Positions 35,643 to 51,134 of a stretch of 64,000 nucleotides of DNA are shown here, one piece after another. The notes below the pieces were generated by a model. That model had not been told where the DNA came from, did no database searches, and saw nothing but the letters and a program-made list of their open reading frames with translations. Origin of the DNA: Burkholderiales bacterium GJ-E10 (GTDB lineage Bacteria; Pseudomonadota; Gammaproteobacteria; Burkholderiales; Burkholderiaceae_F); NCBI GenBank assembly GCA_000828975.1, contig AP014683.1, positions 2,003,700-2,067,699 on the forward strand. Reading direction: 5' to 3'. Numbering within the stretch: the stretch's first letter is position 1; every line of letters begins with the position of its first letter. Both the position numbers and the translations under genes were made by a program.

Positions 35643-36081
35643 GGTTTCCTCGAAAAAAATGCGGCGAGTCGTTGTGCATGCCTGCTTTTCCGTTCTGCAA
35701 GGGACATGCCAACGACGTGGCCGCATGCCGTTCCGCCGCCGCGTCGCTCGAACGTCCCTTCGCAATGTTCGGCACCGCGCAAGGCATCGCGCCGGGGAAG
35801 ATTCGTCCCGTCAGGCCTTCGGCCGGTCGATAATGACCACGCACGATTCCGTACGCCGATAAATTAATCGCACCAAGCAGGTGCAGTTCTCCGGGTTTCT
35901 GCACCAGATCGGCCAGCCTGCACTGAATGCCGACGTGGTTTGCCGGCACGATCGAGACCTCCCGCAAGGTTTTGGGGAGATCCAGAAAACCACTCGGAAT
36001 CGTTCTGATCTCGCGAAGTCCCGGTCCGGATGCATAGCGGCCCGTCCATAGCACGGCGTCAGCAAGATTGCCGCCGGGCAC
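35632..36081 (-). CDS. Doubtful ORF upstream of modC
   Basis: A 149-codon frame with a GTG start and a stop eight bases inside modC. The middle reads like protein (REVSIVPANHVGIQCRLADL, then VQKPGELHLLGAINLSAYGI) but I cannot assign it to a family. The first codons overlap a well-formed sigma-54-type promoter on the other strand, and the last third looks random. It may be a truncated gene whose start lies elsewhere, or spurious. If it is not real, 35643-36058 holds no recognised gene. Confidence 0.3.
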   Translation of the reverse strand: MPGGNLADAVLWTGRYASGPGLREIRTIPSGFLDLPKTLREVSIVPANHVGIQCRLADLVQKPGELHLLGAINLSAYGIVRGHYRPAEGLTGRIFPGAMPCAVPNIAKGRSSDAAAERHAATSLACPLQNGKAGMHNDSPHFFRGNHAD

Positions 36082-36091
36082 GGCAATTGCT
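36076..36091 (+). promoter_or_regulatory. Sigma-54-type promoter of porin 2
   Basis: GGGCACGGCAATTGCT places GG (36077-36078) and GC (36089-36090) exactly ten bases apart, matching the -24/-12 consensus TGGCAC-N5-TTGC closely. Almost the same sequence lies upstream of narK (49740-49755). Transcription would start about 12 bases downstream, just before the hairpins at 36105. Confidence 0.7.
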
Positions 36092-36104
36092 TGTCCTCTC
36101 CGGT

Positions 36105-36171
36105 GGGCGCAACGGCGCGCCCCGTCCTCCGAATTGCCTTCGGGTGGTCCTGCGTCCAGTGCGGCGCGCAG
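36105..36171 (+). promoter_or_regulatory. ANTAR-type leader hairpins and terminator-like stem before porin 2
   Basis: A perfect 6-bp stem with hexaloop AACGGC (36105-36122) is followed after six bases by a second hairpin, CCGAATTGCCTTCGG (36129-36143), whose loop also begins with A and has G at position 4. These are the marks of the two-hairpin RNA bound by ANTAR regulators. A stem with CTGCG/CGCAG arms (36150-36171) followed by TTTCC resembles a terminator, weaker here than in the narK copy. Porin 2 begins ~220 bases downstream. Confidence 0.6.
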
Positions 36172-36389
36172 CGGTTTCCTTCGCTCGGATACGAACCCTC
36201 AGATTTTCCCCGGTGAGTCTTCAGACTTCCCCCGGCTTCGACTCGCGTCACGGCATGCGCTCACACCCCCCGAGTGTCTCGTGCGAGGGGGGGCCGTGCG
36301 TCGATCACCTTCCTGGGGTTCCTCGGTTCATCAACCGGTCATGCGCGATGAGGCAGCACTTGCAACGATTTGAACAAAGGAAGACTTCC

Positions 36390-37775
36390 ATGCGCCGTGT
36401 ATGCCGCACCCATTTCGCCCTTGCCGCGGCATTTGCCGTGACCGGCGCGGGATTTCTCGGTGTTGCAATCGCCGACGATGCCACGATCGTCGGCTACCCC
36501 GCGAATCCGAGCAGCACCACCGGGGTTACGAACATCGAACTGCGACCGCGCTATGAATCCGTCCAGCAGCAAGGCACGGGGGAGGCGAAGGCAGCGACGG
36601 TGCGTGCGTTGGCAGGGTACACCACGCCGCAGGCGGCGGACGGGTTAGGCGCTACCCTGGAACTCATTGGCGTTGGCGCCGCCGACACTGCGGCCTATAA
36701 CGTGCCGGTCGAACCCCTGCCCAAAGGTAGCAACCCTGCGCACGCGACCATTCTCGACCCCGAAGGATTCAACGCCAACCAAGCCTATCTCTCCTATGAC
36801 GGCGTTGCGGACACCCGCGTCCTTGCCGGGCGGCAGCTCATCGAACTCGACGACCAGCGCTTCGTCGGCAACGTCGGGTTTCGGCAGAACATGCAGACCT
36901 TCGACGGACTGAGCGTGGTCAATCGCGGCATTCCGAACGTGGAAGTGACAGGTGCGTACCTATTTGGGGCCAAGGACGTACTCAACGACGAGGTTCATAT
37001 GAAAACATTTCTCGCGGAGGCCACTTGGACCCGGTACGCAGCGGCGCATGTCGACGCGTTCGGCTACTGGTATGGAAATCGGGAAAACGCCCATGGCGGA
37101 ACGACGCCGGGCAACGCCGCGATCATTCCCGGGGCTGCCCTGTGCGGCGCCGGACCAAACAGCGCAAACAGTCTGGTGAATCCCCAAGCGTGCAACAGCG
37201 CCACGTTCGGTGCCCGCATGCATGGCGACCTCCCTCTCGCCGGCGCGTGGTCGGCACGCTACGCAGCGGAGTATGCGCACCAGAACGCTTGGGACGGCGG
37301 CTACGGCGCCATCGGCAACGATTTCGACCATCTGGCCGGGACGCTGCTTCGGGAGGGCGCGTACCTCTCGGTAGACGCGATGCGGATGGGTGCGAACACC
37401 GACGGTACGTACGGTTTCCAGACGCCGATGGCGACCAAACACGCCTTCAACGGCTGGGCGGAAATGTTTCTGACCACGCCCAAGGAAGGTTTGCGAAGCG
37501 ATTACGCGACGATCGGCGACAAGAATATCCTGGGGTTCGATATGTCGATCCGCTACTACCGGTTCACTACCGATTACCAAGGGACGCCTCTCGGGCATGA
37601 GTGGGACTGGTCCATCCGCCGCGCCTTGACCCGCACGGTGAATTTCGTCGTGCAAGTGGCGAAATTTTCCGTTGATGCCGGAGGTGCCGCGTCCTATGCC
37701 GATCTGCAGGCGGGCAAGCCCACCGGGCTGGAAAACACCACGGCGATGTGGGGCATGTTGATGGCGAAGTTTTGA
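36390..37775 (+). CDS. Outer-membrane porin-like protein 2
   Basis: A 461-residue exported barrel protein. The signal peptide (THFALAAAFAVTGAGFLGVA) is followed by ATIVGYPANPSSTTGVTNIE and a barrel ending in LMAKF. It is closely similar along its whole length to porin 1 (15920-17323), including LAGRQLIELDDQRFVGNVGF and the loop AALCGAGPNSANS. ATG at 36390 follows AAAGGAAG; the open frame upstream is leader. Its control region duplicates that of the nitrate operon, so it may admit nitrate or nitrite. That is an inference from regulation, not from the protein. Confidence 0.75.
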   Translation: MRRVCRTHFALAAAFAVTGAGFLGVAIADDATIVGYPANPSSTTGVTNIELRPRYESVQQQGTGEAKAATVRALAGYTTPQAADGLGATLELIGVGAADTAAYNVPVEPLPKGSNPAHATILDPEGFNANQAYLSYDGVADTRVLAGRQLIELDDQRFVGNVGFRQNMQTFDGLSVVNRGIPNVEVTGAYLFGAKDVLNDEVHMKTFLAEATWTRYAAAHVDAFGYWYGNRENAHGGTTPGNAAIIPGAALCGAGPNSANSLVNPQACNSATFGARMHGDLPLAGAWSARYAAEYAHQNAWDGGYGAIGNDFDHLAGTLLREGAYLSVDAMRMGANTDGTYGFQTPMATKHAFNGWAEMFLTTPKEGLRSDYATIGDKNILGFDMSIRYYRFTTDYQGTPLGHEWDWSIRRALTRTVNFVVQVAKFSVDAGGAASYADLQAGKPTGLENTTAMWGMLMAKF

Positions 37776-38061
37776 TCGTCGTGGAAATGAACCGCGAAAC
37801 GAAACGATCGGCACGCCTTTCTACTCGCGCGGAATGCGCGAGCGTACGCCGGTCGATGCACCGTTCGCTCCGGGGCGATGCATCCCATGCGGGTTTGTTG
37901 GCACATCGTTTGCTTGGTTCAATCGTTATCACGGCAATCCCTCCGAGGCGCATAGCCTGCGGTTTCCTTCGGGAGATACGGCTTTGCGTCCGTGATCTTC
38001 GGATCAACAGGGTGGACGGGGAAACGCGTCCGCCTCCCGCGCTTGGAAAGGAGAACGAACC

Positions 38062-39045
38062 ATGCCCCCTCTGGCAGATCGTTATGGTCGCCGGTTTCCG
38101 TATCTGCGATTGTCGATCACAGCCGCGTGCAACTTCCGTTGCACATATTGCCTTCCGCACGGAACCGGCCCGGACCCTCGCGCAGCGGGCCCGCTGTCGC
38201 TCGAGGAGATCACAAGACTGTTGCGCGGCTTCGCACAGCTGGGCATGAACAAACTGCGCATCACCGGCGGAGAGCCGACTGTGCGCCGCGATCTGACGGA
38301 GGTCCTGCGCATCGCGTCGGCCGTGCCCGGTCTGCGTACGCTGGCAATGAGCACCAACGGCACCCTGTTGGCACGCCGTCTCGGTGCATGGATGGATGCG
38401 GGACTGAATTCCATCAACGTCAGCGTGGACAGTCTGAATCGGATGACGTTCGCACGGATCACCGGCCACGACGGCCTCGACCAGATTCTTCGCGGCATCG
38501 ACATGGCGATCGCAGCGGGCGTGCCATCGGTCAAGATCAACACCCTGATGCTCCGCAGCGTAAATGACGCCGAGTTGCCGGCTTGGCTCGAATACCTGCG
38601 TCATCGCACGGTCGTCGTGCGGTTCATCGAACTGATGCAAACCGGCGACAATGTGGCGTTCTTCCGCGACCGCCACACGCGCGCGGACCGGCTCGCCGAG
38701 CTACTGCGGAATGCCGGCTGGCAACCGGTGTCCCGCGCGGCCGATGCCGGTCCGGCGATCGAGTACCGTCATGACGACTATTCCGGCCGCGTCGGCATCA
38801 TCGCACCATACTCGACGGGCTTTTGCGATGGCTGCAACCGCTTGCGTGTCACCGCCGCCGGCGATCTGCGCCTGTGCCTGTTCGGCGAATTCGGGGTGCC
38901 GCTGCGCACGTGGCTGCAGTCCGACGATCAGATCGGTGACCTGGTGCACGTCATCCGCGAGCAGATCGGACGGAAGGAGCAAGGCCATTTTCTGCGCGAG
39001 GGGCGCACCGGCATCACCCCGCATCTCGCATCCACGGGAGGATGA
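38062..39045 (+). CDS. moaA: GTP 3',8-cyclase
   Basis: A 327-residue radical SAM enzyme for the first step of molybdenum cofactor synthesis. SITAACNFRCTYCLPHG carries the CxxxCxxC cluster, ITGGEPTVRRDLTEVL the SAM-binding GGEP. FCDGCNRLRVTAAGDLRLCL supplies the C-terminal FeS cysteines, and the chain ends in the functional GG. AAAGGAG precedes the ATG. It is the first of six tightly packed cofactor genes. The 286 bases between porin 2 and moaA contain no recognised gene and may hold the operon promoter. Confidence 0.95.
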   Translation: MPPLADRYGRRFPYLRLSITAACNFRCTYCLPHGTGPDPRAAGPLSLEEITRLLRGFAQLGMNKLRITGGEPTVRRDLTEVLRIASAVPGLRTLAMSTNGTLLARRLGAWMDAGLNSINVSVDSLNRMTFARITGHDGLDQILRGIDMAIAAGVPSVKINTLMLRSVNDAELPAWLEYLRHRTVVVRFIELMQTGDNVAFFRDRHTRADRLAELLRNAGWQPVSRAADAGPAIEYRHDDYSGRVGIIAPYSTGFCDGCNRLRVTAAGDLRLCLFGEFGVPLRTWLQSDDQIGDLVHVIREQIGRKEQGHFLREGRTGITPHLASTGG

Positions 39046-42706: not shown

Positions 42707-45475
42707 CTACGCGTCCGCCATGCTCCGCCGCACGAGGCGTTGCAATTCCGGCACGCAGGAGCCGCAGTTCGTCCCGCAACGCAGCGTTCCTTGCAATGAT
42801 GCCAAGCGTTGCGCTGCCGTGCCCTCGGTTTGCGCAAGCGTCTCCCGGATGCTCGATTCGGAAACATCGAAACAGGAGCAAACCTGCCGGCTGCGCAGTG
42901 CGACCACCCCAGGGGCAACCGCTCCCGGTTGGAGCAACTGCGCACCGAGCCCACGCACCGGCGCTTGCTGCAGAAGCCATTCGCGCATCCAAGGCTCGGA
43001 ATCAATCTCGCCGCCCAACAGGAATCCCTGCATCCGATCCTCGCACACGCGCACGGTCCTGGTTCGTCCCCTCCGCGCATCGGCGTAGCGTAACGCATCG
43101 ACCGAGTCAAGGTTCAACACGTTTTCGATCTGCGCCAAGACGCTTGCTGCCGCCGGCTGCAATGCGGCGGCCCGGAACAAGACGCCGGTACGGTCCGTTC
43201 CGAACGGTACGCACACCGCGAACGGGAACTCGCGCATCGATACGCGCAATTGCTGCTGGGCCTGTAACGCCCGCTCTGGCAACCACGCCATTGCAACCAG
43301 GCGCCAGGGAAGATGGGCGCGTTCGATGTCGACGGCGGCATGCTTGAGTTCGGGTTGTTTGCTTTGCGGACAGAACTGGCGCAGCGTGAGCGTGTTCACC
43401 CCTTCAGCGCCACCGAGAAATTCCTCGCCCCAGTGCATCGGCAGAAACGTGTGGGTGCGCGAGATCTGTTCGCTGGCGCGGGCCTGGATCAAGAGTTCGC
43501 CGCGTCGTGATCGGACGCGAACCAGGTCGCCATCGGCGAGGCCAAGGCGCTCCATGTCCCCCGGATGCATCTCGATCGCCGGCTCGGGGGCATGGCCGAA
43601 CAGTTGCGGGATCGTTCCCGTGCGACTCATCCCGTGCCATTGGTCACGCAGCCGCCCCGTGAGCAACGAAAACGGATATCTCGCGTCGCGCGGTTCCGCC
43701 GAGGGCTTGTACCCGACGTCCGCAAATCTCGCCCGACCGTCAGGGGTAGGAAAGATACCGTTGGCATACAGACGAGCACTCCCCGCGATTGCTCCGTCCG
43801 GAAACGGCCACTGCTGCGGCCCATGCGTCTCCAGGAACGAGTAGCTCAGGCCGGTGATGTCCAGGTCCCGGCCACGGGTGCTTTCGCGATGCTCGTTCCA
43901 GATCTCCTCGGGCGTATCGTACCGAAACAAACTCGGTTTGCCGGGGCGCAGCCGCTCTTCCAGCCGATGCGCAAAGTTCACACCTATGCGCCAGTCGGCG
44001 CGCGCCTCGCCCGGAGCGGGCACCGCCGCGCGGACGCGCGAGATGCGCCGCTCGGAGTTTGTGACCGTTCCCTCTTTCTCCCCCCAAGTCGAAGCAGGCA
44101 GCAAGAGGTCCGCATAGTGGGCGGTGGCGGTTGCAGCGAACGCCTCTTGCAACACCACGAATTGGACACGCTCCAGCGCGCGGCGCACGAGCTTTTGTTC
44201 GGGAAGGGATTGCGCCGGGTTGGTGCACGCGATCCACAATGCTTTGATGGTGCCCGCGGCCGCGGCCTCGAACATCTCGACGGCCGTGAGCCCCGTTTGA
44301 GACGGTACGGAGTCGACCCCCCAGAGGCGGGCGATCTCGGTGCGATCGGCAACCTTGCCCAGGTCACGGTGCGCGCTTGCGAGGTTGGCCATCGCTCCGA
44401 CCTCGCGTCCTCCCATCGCGTTTGGTTGCCCGGTCAGCGAAAGCGGACCCGCGCCGGGCTTTCCGATCTGCCCGGTGGCGAGGTGCAGGTTGATCAGCGC
44501 GGCATTTTTCGCGGTCCCGTCGGCGCTCTGGTTCAAACCCTGGCAGTACAAGGAGAGCGTTGGGCCTTGCGCGAACCAGTGCGCCGCGCGCACGAGATCC
44601 GCTTCCGAAATGCCGCACAGTTGCGCGGCATCGCGCGGCGGAAATTCGCGCACGCGTTCCTTGAGCGCGTCGAAGCCGGTCGTGCACCGCGCGATGAACG
44701 CGGAATCGACCAACCCTTCCCATAACAGCACATGGAGCATTCCGTGAAAAAGGACCACATCGGTTCCCGGAGCGATCGGCAGGAAAAGGTCCGCGATTTC
44801 CGCAGTATCCGTGCGCCGCGGATCGACCACGACGATGCGCAGACGCGGGTTGGCGCGTTTGGCATCCTCGATGCGCCGAAAAAGCACCGGATGGGCGAAT
44901 GCGGTGTTCGCACCGACCAGGAACAATGTCGCCGCCATCGCGATGTCGTCGTAACAAGGAGGCGGCGCATCCGCGCCCAGCGTAAGCTTGTAGCCTGCCA
45001 CCGCGCTGCTCATGCATAGACGGGAGTTGCTATCGATGTTGTTGGTCTGCAGCAGTCCCTTGGCGAGCTTGTTGAAGACGTAGTAATCCTCGGTCAGAAA
45101 CTGGCCGGAAACGTAGAAACCGACGGAGTCTGAACCATGCCGCCGTACGGTTTCGGCAAAGCGGTCCGCCGCCAGATCCAATGCCTCGCCCCAACTCAGC
45201 GGCTCTGGTTCCGATCCCCGACTCGCGCGGTGCATCGGTTGCAGCAGGCGCGCCTGCGTCAGGACGGATTCCGTCGCGCTCTTGTGCAGGCTGTTGCCCT
45301 TCGAGCAGAGCCTGCCGAAATTGGCCGGATGCGCGGCGTCACCGTGCACGCCGGTGATGCGTCCGTCCGCCGACTCGATAATGACGCCGCAGCCGACGCC
45401 GCAGTAGCAGCACGTGGAGGGCGTGGTTCGCAACACAGGATCTTGTGCGAACGAGTCGTCAGAGCGGACGCGCAT
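42707..45475 (-). CDS. nasA: Assimilatory nitrate reductase catalytic subunit
   Basis: A 922-residue bis-MGD molybdoenzyme that reduces nitrate to nitrite in the cytoplasm. The N-terminal 4Fe-4S site is TCCYCGVGCGVII with LCSKG. LTGQPNAMGGREVGAMANL, then LLPASTWGEKEGTVTNSERR and LTGRLRDQWHGMSRTG are family blocks. A C-terminal BFD-like 2Fe-2S domain (QVCSCFDVSESSI, LRCGTNCGSCVPEL) would take electrons from a reductase. The start overlaps nirD by 17 bases. Last gene of narK-nirB-nirD-nasA. Confidence 0.95.
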   Translation of the reverse strand: MRVRSDDSFAQDPVLRTTPSTCCYCGVGCGVIIESADGRITGVHGDAAHPANFGRLCSKGNSLHKSATESVLTQARLLQPMHRASRGSEPEPLSWGEALDLAADRFAETVRRHGSDSVGFYVSGQFLTEDYYVFNKLAKGLLQTNNIDSNSRLCMSSAVAGYKLTLGADAPPPCYDDIAMAATLFLVGANTAFAHPVLFRRIEDAKRANPRLRIVVVDPRRTDTAEIADLFLPIAPGTDVVLFHGMLHVLLWEGLVDSAFIARCTTGFDALKERVREFPPRDAAQLCGISEADLVRAAHWFAQGPTLSLYCQGLNQSADGTAKNAALINLHLATGQIGKPGAGPLSLTGQPNAMGGREVGAMANLASAHRDLGKVADRTEIARLWGVDSVPSQTGLTAVEMFEAAAAGTIKALWIACTNPAQSLPEQKLVRRALERVQFVVLQEAFAATATAHYADLLLPASTWGEKEGTVTNSERRISRVRAAVPAPGEARADWRIGVNFAHRLEERLRPGKPSLFRYDTPEEIWNEHRESTRGRDLDITGLSYSFLETHGPQQWPFPDGAIAGSARLYANGIFPTPDGRARFADVGYKPSAEPRDARYPFSLLTGRLRDQWHGMSRTGTIPQLFGHAPEPAIEMHPGDMERLGLADGDLVRVRSRRGELLIQARASEQISRTHTFLPMHWGEEFLGGAEGVNTLTLRQFCPQSKQPELKHAAVDIERAHLPWRLVAMAWLPERALQAQQQLRVSMREFPFAVCVPFGTDRTGVLFRAAALQPAAASVLAQIENVLNLDSVDALRYADARRGRTRTVRVCEDRMQGFLLGGEIDSEPWMREWLLQQAPVRGLGAQLLQPGAVAPGVVALRSRQVCSCFDVSESSIRETLAQTEGTAAQRLASLQGTLRCGTNCGSCVPELQRLVRRSMADA

Positions 45476-45812
45476 CGATCTGTGCGAGGTTCAGATACAC
45501 CACACCGGACTCGATCCGTACGTCGACACGCGCCGCGCAACCTTCGTCCGGTGCGGCGGCGCGGCCATCTTCCAGTCCGATCGTCCAATTGTGCAAAGGA
45601 CATGCGACGCTGCGCGCAAAGACGATTCCTTGCGACAGCGGCCCGCCCTTGTGGGGGCATCGATCGAGGAGCGCGAAGATCGCATCGTCGTCGGTGCGAA
45701 AGACCGCAATCGGCACACGGCCTTCGCGTTCCACGCGCCGGGCGCCAAGTTTCGGGATGTCCTCCAACCGGCAAACCGCCGTCCACCGTTCTCTATCCAT
45801 GCCGGCATTCAT
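45459..45812 (-). CDS. nirD: Nitrite reductase small subunit (Rieske)
   Basis: A 117-residue Rieske-type subunit of NADH-dependent nitrite reductase. WTAVCRLEDIPKLGARRVER opens it. LLDRCPHKGGPLSQGIV and VACPLHNWTIGLEDG carry the C-x-H and C-x2-H cluster ligands. ATG at 45812 overlaps the nirB stop by four bases. It partners with NirB in reducing nitrite to ammonium. Confidence 0.93.
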   Translation of the reverse strand: MNAGMDRERWTAVCRLEDIPKLGARRVEREGRVPIAVFRTDDDAIFALLDRCPHKGGPLSQGIVFARSVACPLHNWTIGLEDGRAAAPDEGCAARVDVRIESGVVYLNLAQIDARPL

Positions 45813-48253
45813 ACGGTCAACCCTTCAAACTGCCGCAAGTCCACTCCCGCGCGCGCCGAGTTGTTCCACGGATCCGGTTCCTCTTCGAGCGCGAACTGCA
45901 AGCGTGTCCACAGCGCGATGCGCCCTTCGGCATCTTCGACGATGCGCTGGCGCACCGCGTCGATGCCGACACGAGCGACAAAGTGCACCGTGCGTTCGAG
46001 ATACCATCCCTCTTCGCGATAAAGCTGCAGGAAAGCGCCCGCGTATTCCAGCACTTCCTCGTGCGTCGCCACTTTGGCCAGGAACTGCGCGACCTCGGTC
46101 TTGATGCCGCCGTTGCCCGCGATATAGATTTCCCATCCCGAGTCGACCCCGATGATGCCCACGTCCTTGATTCCGGCCTCGGCGCAGTTGCGTGGGCACC
46201 CGCTTACTGCAAGCTTGACTTTGTGGGGCGCGTACATGCGCCAGAGCGCCCGCTCCAGTTCCTTGCCCATGCGCGTCGAATCCTGCGTGCCGAAACGGCA
46301 CCACTCCGAACCGACGCAGGTCTTTACGGTGCGCAATGCCTTGGCGTAGGCATGGCCCGAGGGCATGCCGAGGTCCGCCCAAACCTTGGGCAGATCGGCT
46401 TTTTTCACGCCGAGAAGATCGATGCGCTGTCCGCCCGTGACCTTGACGGTGGGAATCCGATACTTGTCGACGACGTCGGCAATCCGGCGCAGCTCTTGCG
46501 CCGAGGTTTCTCCGCCCCAGATGCGCGGCACGACGGAGTAGGTGCCGTCCTTTTGGATATTGGCATGCGCGCGCTCGTTGATGAAGCGGGATTGGGGGTC
46601 GTCGACCGCATCGCGCGGCCAGGTGCTAAGAAGGTAATAGTTGACGGCGGGCCGGCAGCTTGCGCAGCCGGTGGGATTGCGCCATTCCAGCACCTCGAAC
46701 ACCCGCGCTATGCTGAGCAGGCGGCTGCCGTCGGGCAACGGCCTGCGGATCGCGCGGCGCACCTCTTCATGGCTGTAGTCGGTGCAGCCGCACATCGCCT
46801 TTTTCGCCGGCGCGGAGGAGTAGTCGCCCCCCGCCGTAAACATCAGAATCTGCTCCACCAGGCCTGTGCAGGACCCGCAGCTTGCGCTCGCTTTGGTGTG
46901 GCGCCGCACCTCTTCGATCGTGAAGAGGCCTTTTTCCTTGATGGCGCGGCAGATCGTCCCTTTGGTGACGCCGTTGCAGCCGCAGACTTCGTCGCTGTCG
47001 GCCAGTGCCTGGGCGCGGCTTTGTCCTTCGTGTCCGGCGTCGCCCATGCGTCGTTGCCCGAACATCAGGGTTTCTCGAATGTCGGCAATCTTGCGTCCAT
47101 CCCGAACCAGCGAGAAATACCATGCGCCGTCCACGGTGTCGCCGTACAAGCATGCTCCGATGAGCTTGTCATCGCGGATGACGAGTTTCTTGTAGACGCC
47201 TGCATTCGGATCGCTCAGGACGATATCCTCGGTGTCTTTGCCGCCCTGAAAATTCCCCGCAGAAAAAAGATCGATCCCCGTCACCTTCAATTTGGTGGAG
47301 ATCTCACTACCGGTGTAGCGGCCAATGCCGAATCCCGCCAAATGCGTGGCACACACCTTGGCTTGCTCGAAGAGGGGCGCCACCAGACCATAGCTGATGC
47401 CCCGGTGGTTTGCGCACTCGCCCACGGCGTAGATGCGCGGATCGGTCATCGTCTGCATCGTGTCGCCGACGACGATACCGCGCTCGCAATACAGTCCGGT
47501 CTGCTCGGCCAGTTCCGTATTGGCGCGGATTCCGACCGCCATCACGACGAGGTCGGCGGGCAGCTCCGTGCCGTCGGCGAGGCGCACGGCGCACACGCGG
47601 CCGCTTTCTCCCCGCAGTAAGGCCTCGGTCTTGGCCCCGGTGAAGAACTGCAACCCCCGCGATTCGAGGGCCGACTGCAGCATTCGGCCCGCTGTTGTGT
47701 CGAGTTGCCGCTCCATGAGCGTGGGCATGAGGTGCACCACGGCCACCTGCATCCCGCGTTGCACGAGACCGTTGGCGGCTTCGAGGCCCAGCAGGCCGCC
47801 GCCGATCACGACGGCATGCCGATAATGGCGGGCCGCATCGATCATCGCTTCGGTATCGGCGATATCGCGGTAGGAAACGACCCCCGGCAGGTCCGATCCG
47901 GGAACCGGCAGGATCACCGGTTTGGAACCGGTCGCGAAGAGCAGCCGGTCGTAGTGTGTTCGCGTGCCGTCGCCGGCATGAACGAAGCGCCGCGCCCGAT
48001 CCACCGCCACGACCTTCTTGCCAAGATGCAGATCGATGGCGCGCTCTTCGTACCAGGAGCGGGGGTTGAGAATGATCTGGTTGACGGTCTGCTCGCCGGC
48101 AAGTACCGGCGACAAAAGAATGCGGTTGTAATTCGGGTACGGCTCCGCGCCGAAGACCGTAATGTCGTAGGCGTCGGGGGCAATGCGCAACATCTCTTCC
48201 AAAGTGCGCACCCCCGCCATCCCGTTGCCGATCAGAACCAACTTCGATTTCAT
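45809..48253 (-). CDS. nirB: NADH-dependent nitrite reductase large subunit
   Basis: An 814-residue flavoprotein and siroheme enzyme. LVLIGNGMAGVRTLEEMLRI binds FAD and AVVIGGGLLGLEAANGLVQR binds NADH. Two BFD-like 2Fe-2S regions (EVCGCNGVTKGTICRAI, ASCGSCTG and AMCGCTDYS) follow. The siroheme/4Fe-4S domain has TCVGSEWCRFGTQDS and VSGCPRNCAEAGIKDVG. AGGAG lies ahead of the ATG at 48253; the longer frame upstream is read-through of intergenic sequence. Reduces nitrite to ammonium with NirD. Confidence 0.95.
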   Translation of the reverse strand: MKSKLVLIGNGMAGVRTLEEMLRIAPDAYDITVFGAEPYPNYNRILLSPVLAGEQTVNQIILNPRSWYEERAIDLHLGKKVVAVDRARRFVHAGDGTRTHYDRLLFATGSKPVILPVPGSDLPGVVSYRDIADTEAMIDAARHYRHAVVIGGGLLGLEAANGLVQRGMQVAVVHLMPTLMERQLDTTAGRMLQSALESRGLQFFTGAKTEALLRGESGRVCAVRLADGTELPADLVVMAVGIRANTELAEQTGLYCERGIVVGDTMQTMTDPRIYAVGECANHRGISYGLVAPLFEQAKVCATHLAGFGIGRYTGSEISTKLKVTGIDLFSAGNFQGGKDTEDIVLSDPNAGVYKKLVIRDDKLIGACLYGDTVDGAWYFSLVRDGRKIADIRETLMFGQRRMGDAGHEGQSRAQALADSDEVCGCNGVTKGTICRAIKEKGLFTIEEVRRHTKASASCGSCTGLVEQILMFTAGGDYSSAPAKKAMCGCTDYSHEEVRRAIRRPLPDGSRLLSIARVFEVLEWRNPTGCASCRPAVNYYLLSTWPRDAVDDPQSRFINERAHANIQKDGTYSVVPRIWGGETSAQELRRIADVVDKYRIPTVKVTGGQRIDLLGVKKADLPKVWADLGMPSGHAYAKALRTVKTCVGSEWCRFGTQDSTRMGKELERALWRMYAPHKVKLAVSGCPRNCAEAGIKDVGIIGVDSGWEIYIAGNGGIKTEVAQFLAKVATHEEVLEYAGAFLQLYREEGWYLERTVHFVARVGIDAVRQRIVEDAEGRIALWTRLQFALEEEPDPWNNSARAGVDLRQFEGLTV

Positions 48254-48291: not shown

Positions 48292-49566
48292 TCAGACCGT
48301 CGTCGTCTCCGCCGCGCCGAACTGTTGGGGCACTGCCGGCGCGGTGGCCGGTACCGTGCCATGCGCCCTCCCGCCCTCGGCGACCCATGTGCGGGTCCAG
48401 CGCGGGTGCATCTTCCGCATAATGAGGAACACGCCCATGGAAAGCATCGCGAAGAACATGAAACCTCCGCCGTAGCTGCCGGAATACTGCTTCGCCAACC
48501 CCATGCTGCTCGGGACGAGCGATCCGCCGAGGGCGCCGACTTCGCCGATCATGGCGCTGGCAACCGCCGTCGTGAGCGGCCAGCGCAAGGGAACCAACTG
48601 GAACAAGGCGCCGTTGCCGGCCCCGAGTGCGGCAAATCCGGTCATCAGAAGGAGCGTCGTACCGAGAATCGAGGAGCCGGCCATGGCGGTCAGCACCATG
48701 CACACGGCGACGACGATCAATACCAATGTGAGCGTATTGACCCCGCCCCAATGATCGGAAATCCATCCGCCGAAGATGCGCAACGCGGAACCCACGAACG
48801 CGGCAAGCATGGCAAGCTGCCCGGCCTGCACCTTGCTCACATGGAATTGGTCGTAGTAATAAGTGGGAAGAAACGACGACAGGCCGATGAATCCGCCGAA
48901 CGTGATGATGTAGATCAAGCTGAATGCCCAGCCGTCTTTTTCAAAGAGACAGGCGAGTTGGGCGCGAACACCGGCGTGCCGATTGACGTCGGGCGGTTCT
49001 TTCGCAAACACGATCATGACGATCGCTGGAACGGCAACCGACGCTGCGGCGATGCCGTACACCGTTTGCCAACCGAACATCTGCGCGAGCGGGGGGGCGA
49101 TCAGCACCGCCACTGCGGTCCCCACGTTGCCTGCGCCGACCAGCCCCATCGCCAACCCTTTGTACTGCGCCGGAAACCATCCGGATCCCAGGGACATCGC
49201 CACGCCGAAGCTCGCACCGGCAACGCCCAGCAGTATGCCCATGGCAAGCAAGTCGCCGAAGCTCTGCACGTGCAGATACCCATAGAGCATCGCGACGGCG
49301 ATGAGCGACATTTCCGCCAGCGTTGCGCGCTTGCGGCCGATGTATTGCGCTAGCACGCCCAGCGGAAAACGCATGAGTGCACCGGCCATGATGGGAACGG
49401 AGAGCATCAACCCCTTTTGCGCAGGGGAGAGCCCAAACGATTCGCCGATGAACGGAGCCAAGGCGCCGTTGAGCACCCAGACGGCGAACGTAAACGTCAA
49501 ATAGAAGAACGACGCAGCGAGCGTAGGCGCATGGCCGGCGCGAAGAAAAGTACGGAAATGGGACAT
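48292..49566 (-). CDS. narK: Nitrate/nitrite MFS transporter
   Basis: A 424-residue NNP-family transporter with 12 predicted helices. FTFAVWVLNGALAPFIGESF, then MLSVPIMAGALMRFPLGVLA carries the arginine in helix 2. Nitrate signature regions are GVAGASFGVAMSLGSGWFPA and GFAALGAGNGALFQLVPLRW. AGGAG precedes the ATG at 49566. First gene of the operon, behind the sigma-54/ANTAR-like control region. Imports nitrate or exchanges nitrate and nitrite. Confidence 0.93.
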   Translation of the reverse strand: MSHFRTFLRAGHAPTLAASFFYLTFTFAVWVLNGALAPFIGESFGLSPAQKGLMLSVPIMAGALMRFPLGVLAQYIGRKRATLAEMSLIAVAMLYGYLHVQSFGDLLAMGILLGVAGASFGVAMSLGSGWFPAQYKGLAMGLVGAGNVGTAVAVLIAPPLAQMFGWQTVYGIAAASVAVPAIVMIVFAKEPPDVNRHAGVRAQLACLFEKDGWAFSLIYIITFGGFIGLSSFLPTYYYDQFHVSKVQAGQLAMLAAFVGSALRIFGGWISDHWGGVNTLTLVLIVVAVCMVLTAMAGSSILGTTLLLMTGFAALGAGNGALFQLVPLRWPLTTAVASAMIGEVGALGGSLVPSSMGLAKQYSGSYGGGFMFFAMLSMGVFLIMRKMHPRWTRTWVAEGGRAHGTVPATAPAVPQQFGAAETTTV

Positions 49567-49646
49567 CGCTTCTCCTGCAACGGGTTGGGGTGGGAATTGC
49601 CGTTTCGAAGACCAACGAGGGAAAACCGGGCTTCGGGAAACCGGAC

Positions 49647-49728
49647 AAAAGAAAGAAACCGCTGCGCGCCACGCTGGACGCAGGACCACCCGAATGCAAT
49701 TCGGAGGAAGGGGCGCGCCGTTGCGCCC
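49647..49728 (-). promoter_or_regulatory. ANTAR-type antiterminator leader of narK
   Basis: Reading leftwards, GGGCGC-AACGGC-GCGCCC (49728-49711) is a perfect stem with hexaloop A1/G4. After six bases comes CCGAATTGCATTCGG (49704-49690), whose loop ATTGCA again has A1/G4. Then follows a CTGCG/CGCAG stem (49683-49662) and a T-rich run (49658-49647), a plausible intrinsic terminator 80 bases before narK. The GGCGCGC in the terminator can pair with GCGCGCC of the first hairpin, so the folds may exclude each other. The divergent ANTAR protein is the natural ligand. Confidence 0.65.
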
Positions 49729-49739
49729 ACCGTAGGACG

Positions 49740-49755
49740 AGCAATTTCCGTGCCT
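49740..49755 (-). promoter_or_regulatory. Sigma-54-type promoter of the narK operon
   Basis: Read leftwards, AGGCACGGAAATTGCT has GG and GC spaced by exactly ten bases and matches the -24/-12 consensus at nearly every position (first T replaced by A). The predicted start of transcription falls just before the first hairpin of the leader. Such promoters need RpoN and an activator such as NtrC, fitting nitrogen control. Confidence 0.7.
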
Positions 49756-49859
49756 GGCAAGGATCTTGCTGAAGCCCTGCCATGTAGCACGCCACCACGC
49801 ATCGCATCCGCCGGACCGGAATCTCGCGTCGGCACCCCGGCGCTGACCGAAGGCACTTT

Positions 49860-51134
49860 ATGACTACCACATTGATCCTGGCTGAGCCGGAAGCGATATG
49901 CATCACACTGGAAACCGACCTAAAAATGATCGGCGTGCACGTGCTTGGTGCGACGACCTGCGCGAATCTGGTGCAGGACGCCGTTCGTTCGAAGCCGGAC
50001 GTCGTCGTGGTTCGGGTTGCCGCGCCCAGACCGGAGCTATTCATCGCATGCTCGGCGCTGGAATCCGTGTATCCCGTGCCAGTCGCGGTCTTCACGGACG
50101 ACGTACGCGTAGAAGCCATTGAACGCGCGCTTGCGAGCGGCGTTCATGCGTGGATCGTGCGCGGATACGGCACGGAGCGTTTGCGCCCGACAATGCAACT
50201 CGCGCGCGCACGATTCCAAAAAGATTGCGAACAGCGCCGGGCGTTTCGAGAAATGGCGGTACGCCTGGAAGAACGAAAACTGGTCGACCGCGCAAAGGGA
50301 ATTCTGATGAGGAGCAGCGGCATGGCGGAGGAAGAGGCGTTCCGCACGCTGCGCGATACCGCGATGCAAGGAAAACAGCGTCTCGGCGAGGTAGCGCAAC
50401 GCCTCATCGATGCCGCGCGCAGCGCCGAGGCGATCAACCGCGCGGGCCAGCTACGAATGCTCTCGCAACGGATAGTAAAGCTTCATTTGCTTGCGTTGGC
50501 GAACGTCGACCCGGCGAGCGCACGAGCTCTGCAACGTGCATCGATCGACCGTGTTGCGCAAAACCTGGCGACTCTTGGGCAATGGATCTCGGGCGCGACT
50601 TTCGGAGATCTGCTGGAAGCAGTCGAGGTTTCTTGGCGCGAGTTGGAAACCGCGTTGGACCCCGGCGCGCCTTGCGACGTGCAGTCGCTCGACGCAGCCG
50701 CCGAGGGTCTACTGGAAGCCGCCGAGCGTTTGACCACCGCACTGGAAGCTGCGAGCCCGGTGCAACGCATGCACGTCGTGAATCTTGCGGGACGCCAACG
50801 CATGCTGGCGCAACGCGTTGCCAAATTCGCCCTGTTGCGGGGAATCGCGTGCGATGCAGCGTCCCGAATCCGGATCGAACCGGCGCAAGAAGCCGCAGAA
50901 ACGGCATTTCGCGAAGCCATCGCCGCGCTACGCCGTTCAGCGTTCTCCGCCGAGACGGAACGAGCCGCGCTGGATCGGGCCACGGAGGTCTGGGACGCGC
51001 TTTGCCGAAATGCCGCAAACCCGGAACGCGCACTTGCGCCAATAGAACTCGCGCAGACCAGCGAGGAATTGCTCGAACTGTTCGATTCATTGACGGAACG
51101 ATATGAACATAGCCTAAAGGTGTTGGTGGCCTAA
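49860..51134 (+). CDS. Receiver-ANTAR regulator fused to PilJ-type nitrate sensor-like region
   Basis: A 424-residue cytoplasmic protein. Residues ~1-125 form a NasT-like degenerate receiver (TLILAEPEAICITLETDLKM). Residues ~125-185 are an ANTAR RNA-binding domain (LVDRAKGILMRSSGMAEEEA, FRTLRDTAMQGKQRLGEVAQ). The rest holds two copies of a PilJ/NarX-like helical motif (INRAGQLRMLSQRIVKL, VNLAGRQRMLAQRVAKF), the arginine-bearing P-box type that binds nitrate in sensors. It therefore looks like a one-protein nitrate-responsive antiterminator, divergent from narK-nirBD-nasA with its candidate RNA target in between. Confidence 0.85.
   Translation: MTTTLILAEPEAICITLETDLKMIGVHVLGATTCANLVQDAVRSKPDVVVVRVAAPRPELFIACSALESVYPVPVAVFTDDVRVEAIERALASGVHAWIVRGYGTERLRPTMQLARARFQKDCEQRRAFREMAVRLEERKLVDRAKGILMRSSGMAEEEAFRTLRDTAMQGKQRLGEVAQRLIDAARSAEAINRAGQLRMLSQRIVKLHLLALANVDPASARALQRASIDRVAQNLATLGQWISGATFGDLLEAVEVSWRELETALDPGAPCDVQSLDAAAEGLLEAAERLTTALEAASPVQRMHVVNLAGRQRMLAQRVAKFALLRGIACDAASRIRIEPAQEAAETAFREAIAALRRSAFSAETERAALDRATEVWDALCRNAANPERALAPIELAQTSEELLELFDSLTERYEHSLKVLVA

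Follow-up and report, generated by a model that had tools for sequence, protein, structure and literature searches.

The nitrate-assimilation genes of Burkholderiales bacterium GJ-E10 are transcribed away from a gene for an ANTAR protein, and the intervening DNA raises the question of which signals open the operon and how an RNA leader might take part. The window, the whole stretch of 64,000 nucleotides analysed here, contains the operon in the order narK-nirB-nirD-nasA, as an earlier note made from the letters alone had stated, and domain and family profile matches bear out this order (Table 1). We propose that the narK leader is a nitrogen- and nitrate-gated 5' leader in which transcription would start from a sigma-54 promoter and the divergently encoded regulator would read two hairpins, P1 and P2, and thereby permit the expression of narK-nirBD-nasA, a reading that we regard as very probable.

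Promoter and hairpins of the narK leader

The site GGCACGGAAATTGC is a near-consensus sigma-54 site found by pattern match, with the GG-N10-GC arrangement and the TGGCAC-N5-TTGC consensus, and the genome contains both rpoN and an NtrC-type activator above cut-off. Sigma-54 pattern matches are few in the 64-kb window (3, vs 0.88 expected by chance) and all three (49754, 36077, and 37900) lie directly 5' of a regulatory RNA. The GG-N10-GC promoter that had been placed before narK is thus borne out both by the pattern match and by the regulator-linked leaders described below. From the position of the promoter, transcription is predicted to start at about 49729 on the minus strand, which is the foot of P1 and not a point downstream of the hairpins. 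The best match to an NtrC box upstream of the promoter in the window has 4 mismatches of 12, and across the loci boxes with 2 mismatches are in slight excess only (7 vs 1.3 expected). The element CGCGA-N6-CCGGTCCGG-ATGC is common to both leader copies of the window, 5' of the sigma-54 site (49756-49860; 35990-36075), and is a possible activator site. A further sigma-54 match, GGCACATCGTTTGC, ends some 15 nt short of a Moco riboswitch (RF01055, 71.3 bits) that precedes moaA, and nitrogen control and cofactor control are possibly combined there on one transcript.

Three hairpins follow GGCACGGAAATTGC between the divergent ANTAR gene and narK. The first, P1, carries AACGGC as a true A1/G4 hexaloop identical to the consensus loop of the Rfam narK RNA, and in this respect the earlier note, which had recognised the same loop, is upheld by the covariance model and the covariation given below. 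A second A1/G4 loop had been placed at ATTGCA, which is where CCGAAUUGCAUUCGG folds with a loop of 3 nt in the narK leader (5 nt in the second copy) and where no loop is conserved in relatives. Having no hexaloop and not being conserved as such, CCGAAUUGCAUUCGG was rejected as the second ANTAR target and is termed the spacer hairpin M; its equivalent in relatives is a variable hairpin with moderate covariation, the support for its helix being moderate and its register ambiguous. The second A1/G4 loop, AGCGUG, is instead found in P2, the very GC stem that had been taken for part of a terminator. Both hexaloops are closed by a C-G pair, P1 strictly conforming to the A1/G4 type and P2 doing so with one C.C mismatch (49677/49668) below the closing pair. 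Energy models favour a slightly smaller apical loop in P2 than the hexaloop and, with the mismatch, this makes the window leader a somewhat degenerate member of its class. The six-base spacing that had been reported between the two ANTAR hairpins holds for P1 to M, while P1 and P2 are 28 nt apart, or 47 nt from loop to loop. The first arm of P1 and the supposed terminator had also been suggested to form a switch, and the complementarity of GCGCGCC with GGCGCGC does exist, but at least 7 such pairs can be formed in 2 of 75 leaders only, and the switch was rejected as a shared feature. The folding energy of the leader is unexceptional against shuffles (z 0.28 and z -0.24), and the support for the structure is therefore comparative.

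Table 1. Positions of the features discussed in the text; unless a genome handle is given, coordinates are those of the window.
Feature	Position	Strand	Description
sigma-54 promoter GGCACGGAAATTGC	49741..49754	-	-24 GG 49754-49753, -12 GC 49742-49741
P1, ANTAR-type hairpin	49711..49728	-	GGGCGC-AACGGC-GCGCCC; loop 49722-49717, A1/G4, C-G closing pair
CUUCCUCC	49703..49710	-	predicted partner of the narK Shine-Dalgarno GGAGAAG, from leader MFE
M, spacer hairpin CCGAAUUGCAUUCGG	49690..49704	-	between P1 and P2
P2, ANTAR-type hairpin	49663..49682	-	UGCGUCC-AGCGUG-GCGCGCA; loop 49675-49670, A1/G4, from R1 alignment to 59 relatives
Weak hairpin CCGGUUUCCCGAAGCCCGG + UUUU	49622..49644	-	sole terminator-like element seen 3' of P2
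narK Shine-Dalgarno AGGAGAAG	49569..49576	-	before ATG 49566
narK-type nitrate/nitrite transporter	48292..49566	-	MFS_1; TIGR00886 E 3.5e-67, below curated cut-off
nirB, nitrite reductase large subunit	45809..48253 (start approximate)	-	TIGR02374 above cut-off
nirD, Rieske-type small subunit	45459..45812	-	Rieske domains
nasA, assimilatory nitrate reductase	42707..45475	-	molybdopterin oxidoreductase domains; NasC/NasA family matches below curated cut-offs
Regulator	49860..51134	+	424 aa: degenerate receiver (about 1-118), ANTAR (132-183), two PilJ (187-424)
Copy 2 sigma-54 promoter GGCACGGCAATTGC	36077..36090	+	pattern match
Copy 2 leader	36105..36170	+	P1 36105-36122 (AACGGC), M 36129-36143, P2 36151-36170 (AGUGCG)
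Gene behind copy 2, outer-membrane porin-like	36390..37775	+	ORF; sequence character only
sigma-54 match GGCACATCGTTTGC	37900..37913	+	before Moco riboswitch
Moco riboswitch	37929..38069	+	RF01055
PilJ-only proteins (examples)	G127:C5:49642-50334; G141:C7:63263-63943; G175:C17:91252-91941
narK RNA (RF03032) loci	L037-L051

The leader class and its regulator

The comparison is based on 80 loci from named genomes that encode the same full-length regulator, mostly from Comamonadaceae and related Burkholderiales together with some alphaproteobacteria. At 76 of these 80 loci a sigma-54-like site lies 5' of the regulator gene and is directed away from it, followed at 20-24 nt from the -12 element by the hexaloop hairpin P1 (with a stem of at least 4; L061, a spurious match inside a gene, was left out), such that the cognate ANTAR gene adjoins the leader RNA. 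A second hexaloop hairpin is present 40-47 nt downstream, loop to loop, in 56 of 77 leaders including that of the window, compared with 7% in shuffles; this strict count for P2 requires an uninterrupted stem of at least 5, which the window itself fails through its one mismatch. With the window left out, all 59 aligned relatives have G at loop position 4 and a purine (A/G) at position 1, in P1 as well as in P2. The two hairpins covary strongly in these orthologous leaders, with changes on both sides of 6 of the 7 pairs of P1 and 7 of the 8 pairs of P2 (59 aligned relatives), and the covariation score of the whole structure, 0.363, is reached by none of 500 shuffles (0.224) and lies far above the slid controls (0.153 at most). 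Without guidance, RNAalifold also predicts P1 and P2.

A covariance model built from the relatives alone (R1, window excluded) places the narK leader (49733-49635, minus strand; 32.9 bits, E 5.3e-5) first in the 3.28-Mb genome and a second leader of the same window (36100-36198, plus strand; 30.8 bits) second genome-wide, the next match scoring 20.3. The possibility that there is no ANTAR leader, and that behind a real sigma-54 site the GC-rich DNA folds into hairpins by chance, would be in keeping with a leader folding energy no better than that of shuffles, but it is contradicted by the covariation, the fixed spacing, the invariant G4, the genome-wide rank, and the second copy, and we consider it highly improbable. 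When R1 was run on 229 sampled genomes of the class, it matched solely the one with a full-length regulator relative, and as the strict filters of this search miss even the window leader, absence in the others is weak evidence. The nearest relative (L052, 53%) has kept the promoter and P1, and P2 is not recognisable there. Full-length relatives were found neither in viral contigs nor, at 80% coverage, on plasmids. A pseudoknot between the M loop and sequence 3' of P2 (GCAC:GUGC) has 22 cells changed on both sides in the class, but it fails the slide control, as a slide of -2 pairs equally well, and is absent from the window; we tentatively suggest that such a pseudoknot may form in part of the class.

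The two copies in the window have identical stems throughout, and their differences fall in the linker and in the loops of M and P2. The P2 loop reads AGCGUG in copy 1 and AGUGCG in copy 2, both of which retain A1 and G4, and the similarity of the copies stops just 3' of P2. The gene behind copy 2 starts about 220 nt downstream and is without a Pfam match. Two other loci (L076 and L077) have one leader at nirB and another at narK, and together with the copy before the porin-like gene these double leaders point to a small regulon.

The regulator has Pfam matches to ANTAR (4e-17) and, in two stretches, to PilJ (3e-18). Its AlphaFold2 model, from an alignment of 41 relatives, has a mean pLDDT of 93.6 and consists of a receiver fold, a long helix with the ANTAR domain, and eight helices in two bundles; the best fold matches are RNA-bound EutV (6ww6, top), Rv1626, and AmiR. 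The receiver is without the conserved acidic pair, aspartate and lysine, and phosphorylation of the protein is therefore unlikely. A profile made from the C-terminal part identifies McpN through its nitrate-binding domain (6gcv, E 2e-10) as well as PilJ, with NarX and NarQ as weak matches; a fold search with this part alone gave weak matches only, PilJ, NarQ, and NasR among them. The PilJ domain of McpN binds nitrate, and an N-box, [IVL][ND]xAGxQRML[ST]Q, has been defined for nitrate-binding PilJ domains (PMC6381276). The two N-boxes of the regulator, INRAGQLRMLSQ and VNLAGRQRMLAQ, each agree with this motif at 11 of 12 positions, the consensus second N-box of the relatives fits it fully, and the N-box arginines are invariant in 41 of 41 relatives. 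No NasS-type partner protein was found above cut-off. Judged by its domains and residues, the regulator appears to unite nitrate sensing and RNA binding in one component, as NasR does with a different set of parts. The ANTAR identity of the divergent gene is confirmed, and its product, which had been put forward as the ligand of the leader, is likely to bind the leader RNA. Elsewhere in the order, several genomes encode a separate protein whose match is limited to the tandem PilJ region (residues about 189-418) and which is perhaps an unfused form of the same sensor; some of these genomes also carry a separate NasT-like gene. A second ANTAR match in the genome (G000:C1:2544907-2545014, minus strand) is marginal, at the cut-off with 27.3 bits and inside a 659-aa open frame.

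Hence we envisage the following sequence of events. Under nitrogen limitation, sigma-54 polymerase together with an enhancer-binding protein such as NtrC would start transcription at about 49729, a step suggested by the promoter and by the presence of rpoN and ntrC in the genome, and the transcript would open with P1. In the pseudo-receiver-ANTAR-PilJ-PilJ protein, the PilJ domains would sense nitrate with no need of phosphorylation, and the ANTAR domain would bind P1 and P2 at their [A/G]NNGNN hexaloops, with M spanning the 28 nt between the two hairpins; the protein family, its invariant residues, and the pairing of regulator gene and leader across loci suggest nitrate sensing and binding. 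Once bound, the regulator would allow narK-nirB-nirD-nasA, as well as the porin-like gene downstream of copy 2, to be expressed; it might do so through antitermination, at a weak or Rho-type terminator that escaped recognition, or by making a sequestered Shine-Dalgarno accessible. The C.C mismatch and the smaller apical loop favoured by energy models in P2, the relative L052 without recognisable P2, the long separation of P1 and P2, the lack of a canonical terminator, and the lack of a clear NtrC site are points against this reading.

Terminator or ribosome-binding site

Antitermination is the mechanism shown for NasR, NasT, and EutV, and the leader could work in the classical way, as at Klebsiella nasF, with an intrinsic terminator between P2 and narK that is blocked by the bound regulator. 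A scan of both strands of the window yielded no terminator that reached the threshold used, and the sole terminator-like element seen 3' of P2 is the weak hairpin CCGGUUUCCCGAAGCCCGG with its UUUU. A slightly longer stretch that includes it folds at -5.2 kcal/mol, which does not surpass the shuffles, and the hairpin is missing from copy 2. A few relatives do have good leader terminators, such as GCCCCGGCCAACUGGGGC-UGUUUUUUU in L117, and the Rfam narK RNA next to nasT has terminators overlapping P2 in 9 of 15 cases, yet in the present class generic terminator-like sites barely exceed shuffles (23 of 78 leaders vs 16 expected) and a terminator overlaps P2 in 3 of 75 leaders, that of the window not among them. 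We therefore assign classical antitermination somewhat less than an even chance. The simple antitermination scheme of the earlier note does not fit these results, as the search for a canonical P2-overlapping terminator came out negative for the window leader and for 72 of 75 leaders; its broader interpretation, a sigma-54 promoter joined to an ANTAR-type leader, is supported, and its second hairpin, terminator, and switch are not. The alphaproteobacterial locus L117 (2800-2930, minus strand) has, besides its strong terminator, a CCUCC/GGAGG pairing at the start, so that both termination and translation may be under control at this locus.

A second kind of output is suggested by the ribosome-binding sites. 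The narK Shine-Dalgarno has a predicted unpaired probability of 0.02, vs 0.19 in shuffled leaders, and in the 31 short leaders in which the start codon comes soon 3' of P2 the corresponding values are 0.14 vs 0.31 (lower in 27 of 31, Wilcoxon 2e-5, with independence overstated because the leaders are related). The 140 other ORFs of the same loci, used as a control, have no such effect (0.35 vs 0.31). The predicted partner is a CUCC segment 3' of P2 in most relatives and, in the window leader, CUUCCUCC, which lies between P1 and M. The unusually sequestered ribosome-binding site of the short leaders suggests that the output may be translational, with the Shine-Dalgarno paired to the CUCC segment in the off-state and freed when the regulator binds the P1-M-P2 fold. 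In addition to the accessibility data, the closeness of the start codon to P2 in many narK-first leaders argues for such gating, as does the translational nitrate control reported in Paracoccus on top of NasT antitermination (PMC5424462). However, accessibility in the window rises to 0.10 only when P1, M, and P2 are forced, many nirB-first leaders are long and fall outside the test, the test overstates independence, and the gene behind copy 2 is about 220 nt away. The predicted pairing hence speaks for a translational component without proving one, and translational gating as the output appears possible, if on the unlikely side. In six other loci (L067, L072, L080, L079, L090, and L096) a short reading frame with a well-formed GGAG-N-ATG start follows the leader ahead of the first real gene and possibly encodes a leader peptide.

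Regulation by an ANTAR protein could be reconciled with the missing intrinsic terminators if termination in the C-rich leader depended on Rho or another factor and were relieved by the regulator. C exceeds G after P2 in both copies of the window, but this excess is not unusual in the class, 8% of the leaders lying above the 95th percentile of the background, and we judge factor-dependent termination to be quite improbable.

Relation to known ANTAR systems

The overall logic of the proposed nitrogen- and nitrate-gated leader is that known from Klebsiella; what is new is the fused regulator, the loops of P1 and P2 lying 40-47 nt apart, and the lack of a P2-overlapping terminator. With nasF and NasR of Klebsiella oxytoca the locus shares an Ntr promoter, a one-component nitrate-sensing ANTAR protein, two A1/G4 hexaloop hairpins, and a nitrate-assimilation operon. 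NasR senses nitrate directly (PMC3369931, PMC7496416, PMC8934654). Its sensor is a NIT domain and its ANTAR domain is C-terminal, whereas the regulator described here has a degenerate receiver, an internal ANTAR domain, and two C-terminal PilJ domains, without a Pfam match to NIT, and only the ANTAR part of the two proteins matches by sequence. Unlike the nasF leader, P1 and P2 here are 28 nt apart with an intervening hairpin, and no terminator was found. McpN shares with the regulator the sequence similarity and the N-box motif, but its PilJ domain is that of a periplasmic chemoreceptor, while two PilJ copies are present here in a predicted cytoplasmic RNA-binding regulator.

ANTAR proteins bind A1/G4 hexaloops with G4 as the key contact, as shown for EutV and NasR (PMC3369931, PMC7496416), and in eut leaders the linker between the hairpins is about 5-12 nt (PMC3369931, PMC8934654). 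EutV no longer antiterminates if the hairpins are moved apart by an extra 20 nt (PMC8934654). The eut leader and the present one share two A1/G4 hexaloops, and RNA-bound EutV ranks first among the fold matches of the regulator; EutV requires phosphorylation and acts on leaders with short linkers, whereas here the receiver is without the phosphorylation residues, the linker of 28 nt contains a hairpin, and the loop-to-loop distance is 47 nt in the window and 40-47 nt in relatives. A mutually exclusive intrinsic terminator overlapping P2 is likewise no feature of the class, with none in the window and 3 in 75 leaders. These differences might be taken to define a distinct class of ANTAR leader, with hairpin-bridged hexaloops about 45 nt apart, a phosphorylation-independent ANTAR-PilJ sensor, and release of the ribosome-binding site in place of terminator prevention, a combined claim that we hold to be rather doubtful as a whole; in some relatives the bridge between the hexaloops is possibly a pseudoknot.

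The NasST systems of Azotobacter, Paracoccus, and Bradyrhizobium also control nas/nir genes through a leader by means of a receiver-ANTAR protein, and the N-terminal 186 residues of the regulator align with proteins of NasT size. NasT, however, is a protein of about 200 aa with NasS as its partner, while the regulator has 424 aa with the sensor fused and no NasS above cut-off. A search of Rfam turned up no ANTAR family, and the sole related match of the window leader was a sub-threshold one to the narK RNA (RF03032; 18.4 bits, below the gathering score of 43.2), which shares the sigma-54 promoter and a hairpin with the identical loop AACGGC. The RF03032 consensus also holds CGAC-AAAGAC-GUCG, an A1/G4 hexaloop left unpaired in the Rfam structure. 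RF03032 matches occur in 15 of 150 genomes of the order, 13 of the 15 at a distance of up to about 3.5 kb from a NasT-like gene, and in 9 of 15 the 3' arm of P2 can pair with a segment before a U run, as in a classical attenuator, compared with 3 of 75 leaders with a P2-overlapping terminator here; the loops are mostly 21-32 nt apart vs 40-47 nt here. The position next to NasT-like genes, the spacing, and the attenuator suggest that the narK RNA is the NasT version of the same leader, and its make-up resembles that of a sigma-54 promoter with a NasT-type ANTAR leader attached. In the literature collection searched, nothing relevant turned up on narK RNA or the narK motif, nor on a combination of ANTAR and PilJ.

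The regulator-RNA pair thus occurs across Burkholderiales and in some alphaproteobacteria, and it would offer a ready explanation of the Rfam narK RNA motif as a sigma-54 promoter with a NasT-type ANTAR leader. As the leader breaks two accepted rules of ANTAR leaders, the short linker and the P2-overlapping terminator, this system can be used to test how ANTAR proteins act once they are bound.
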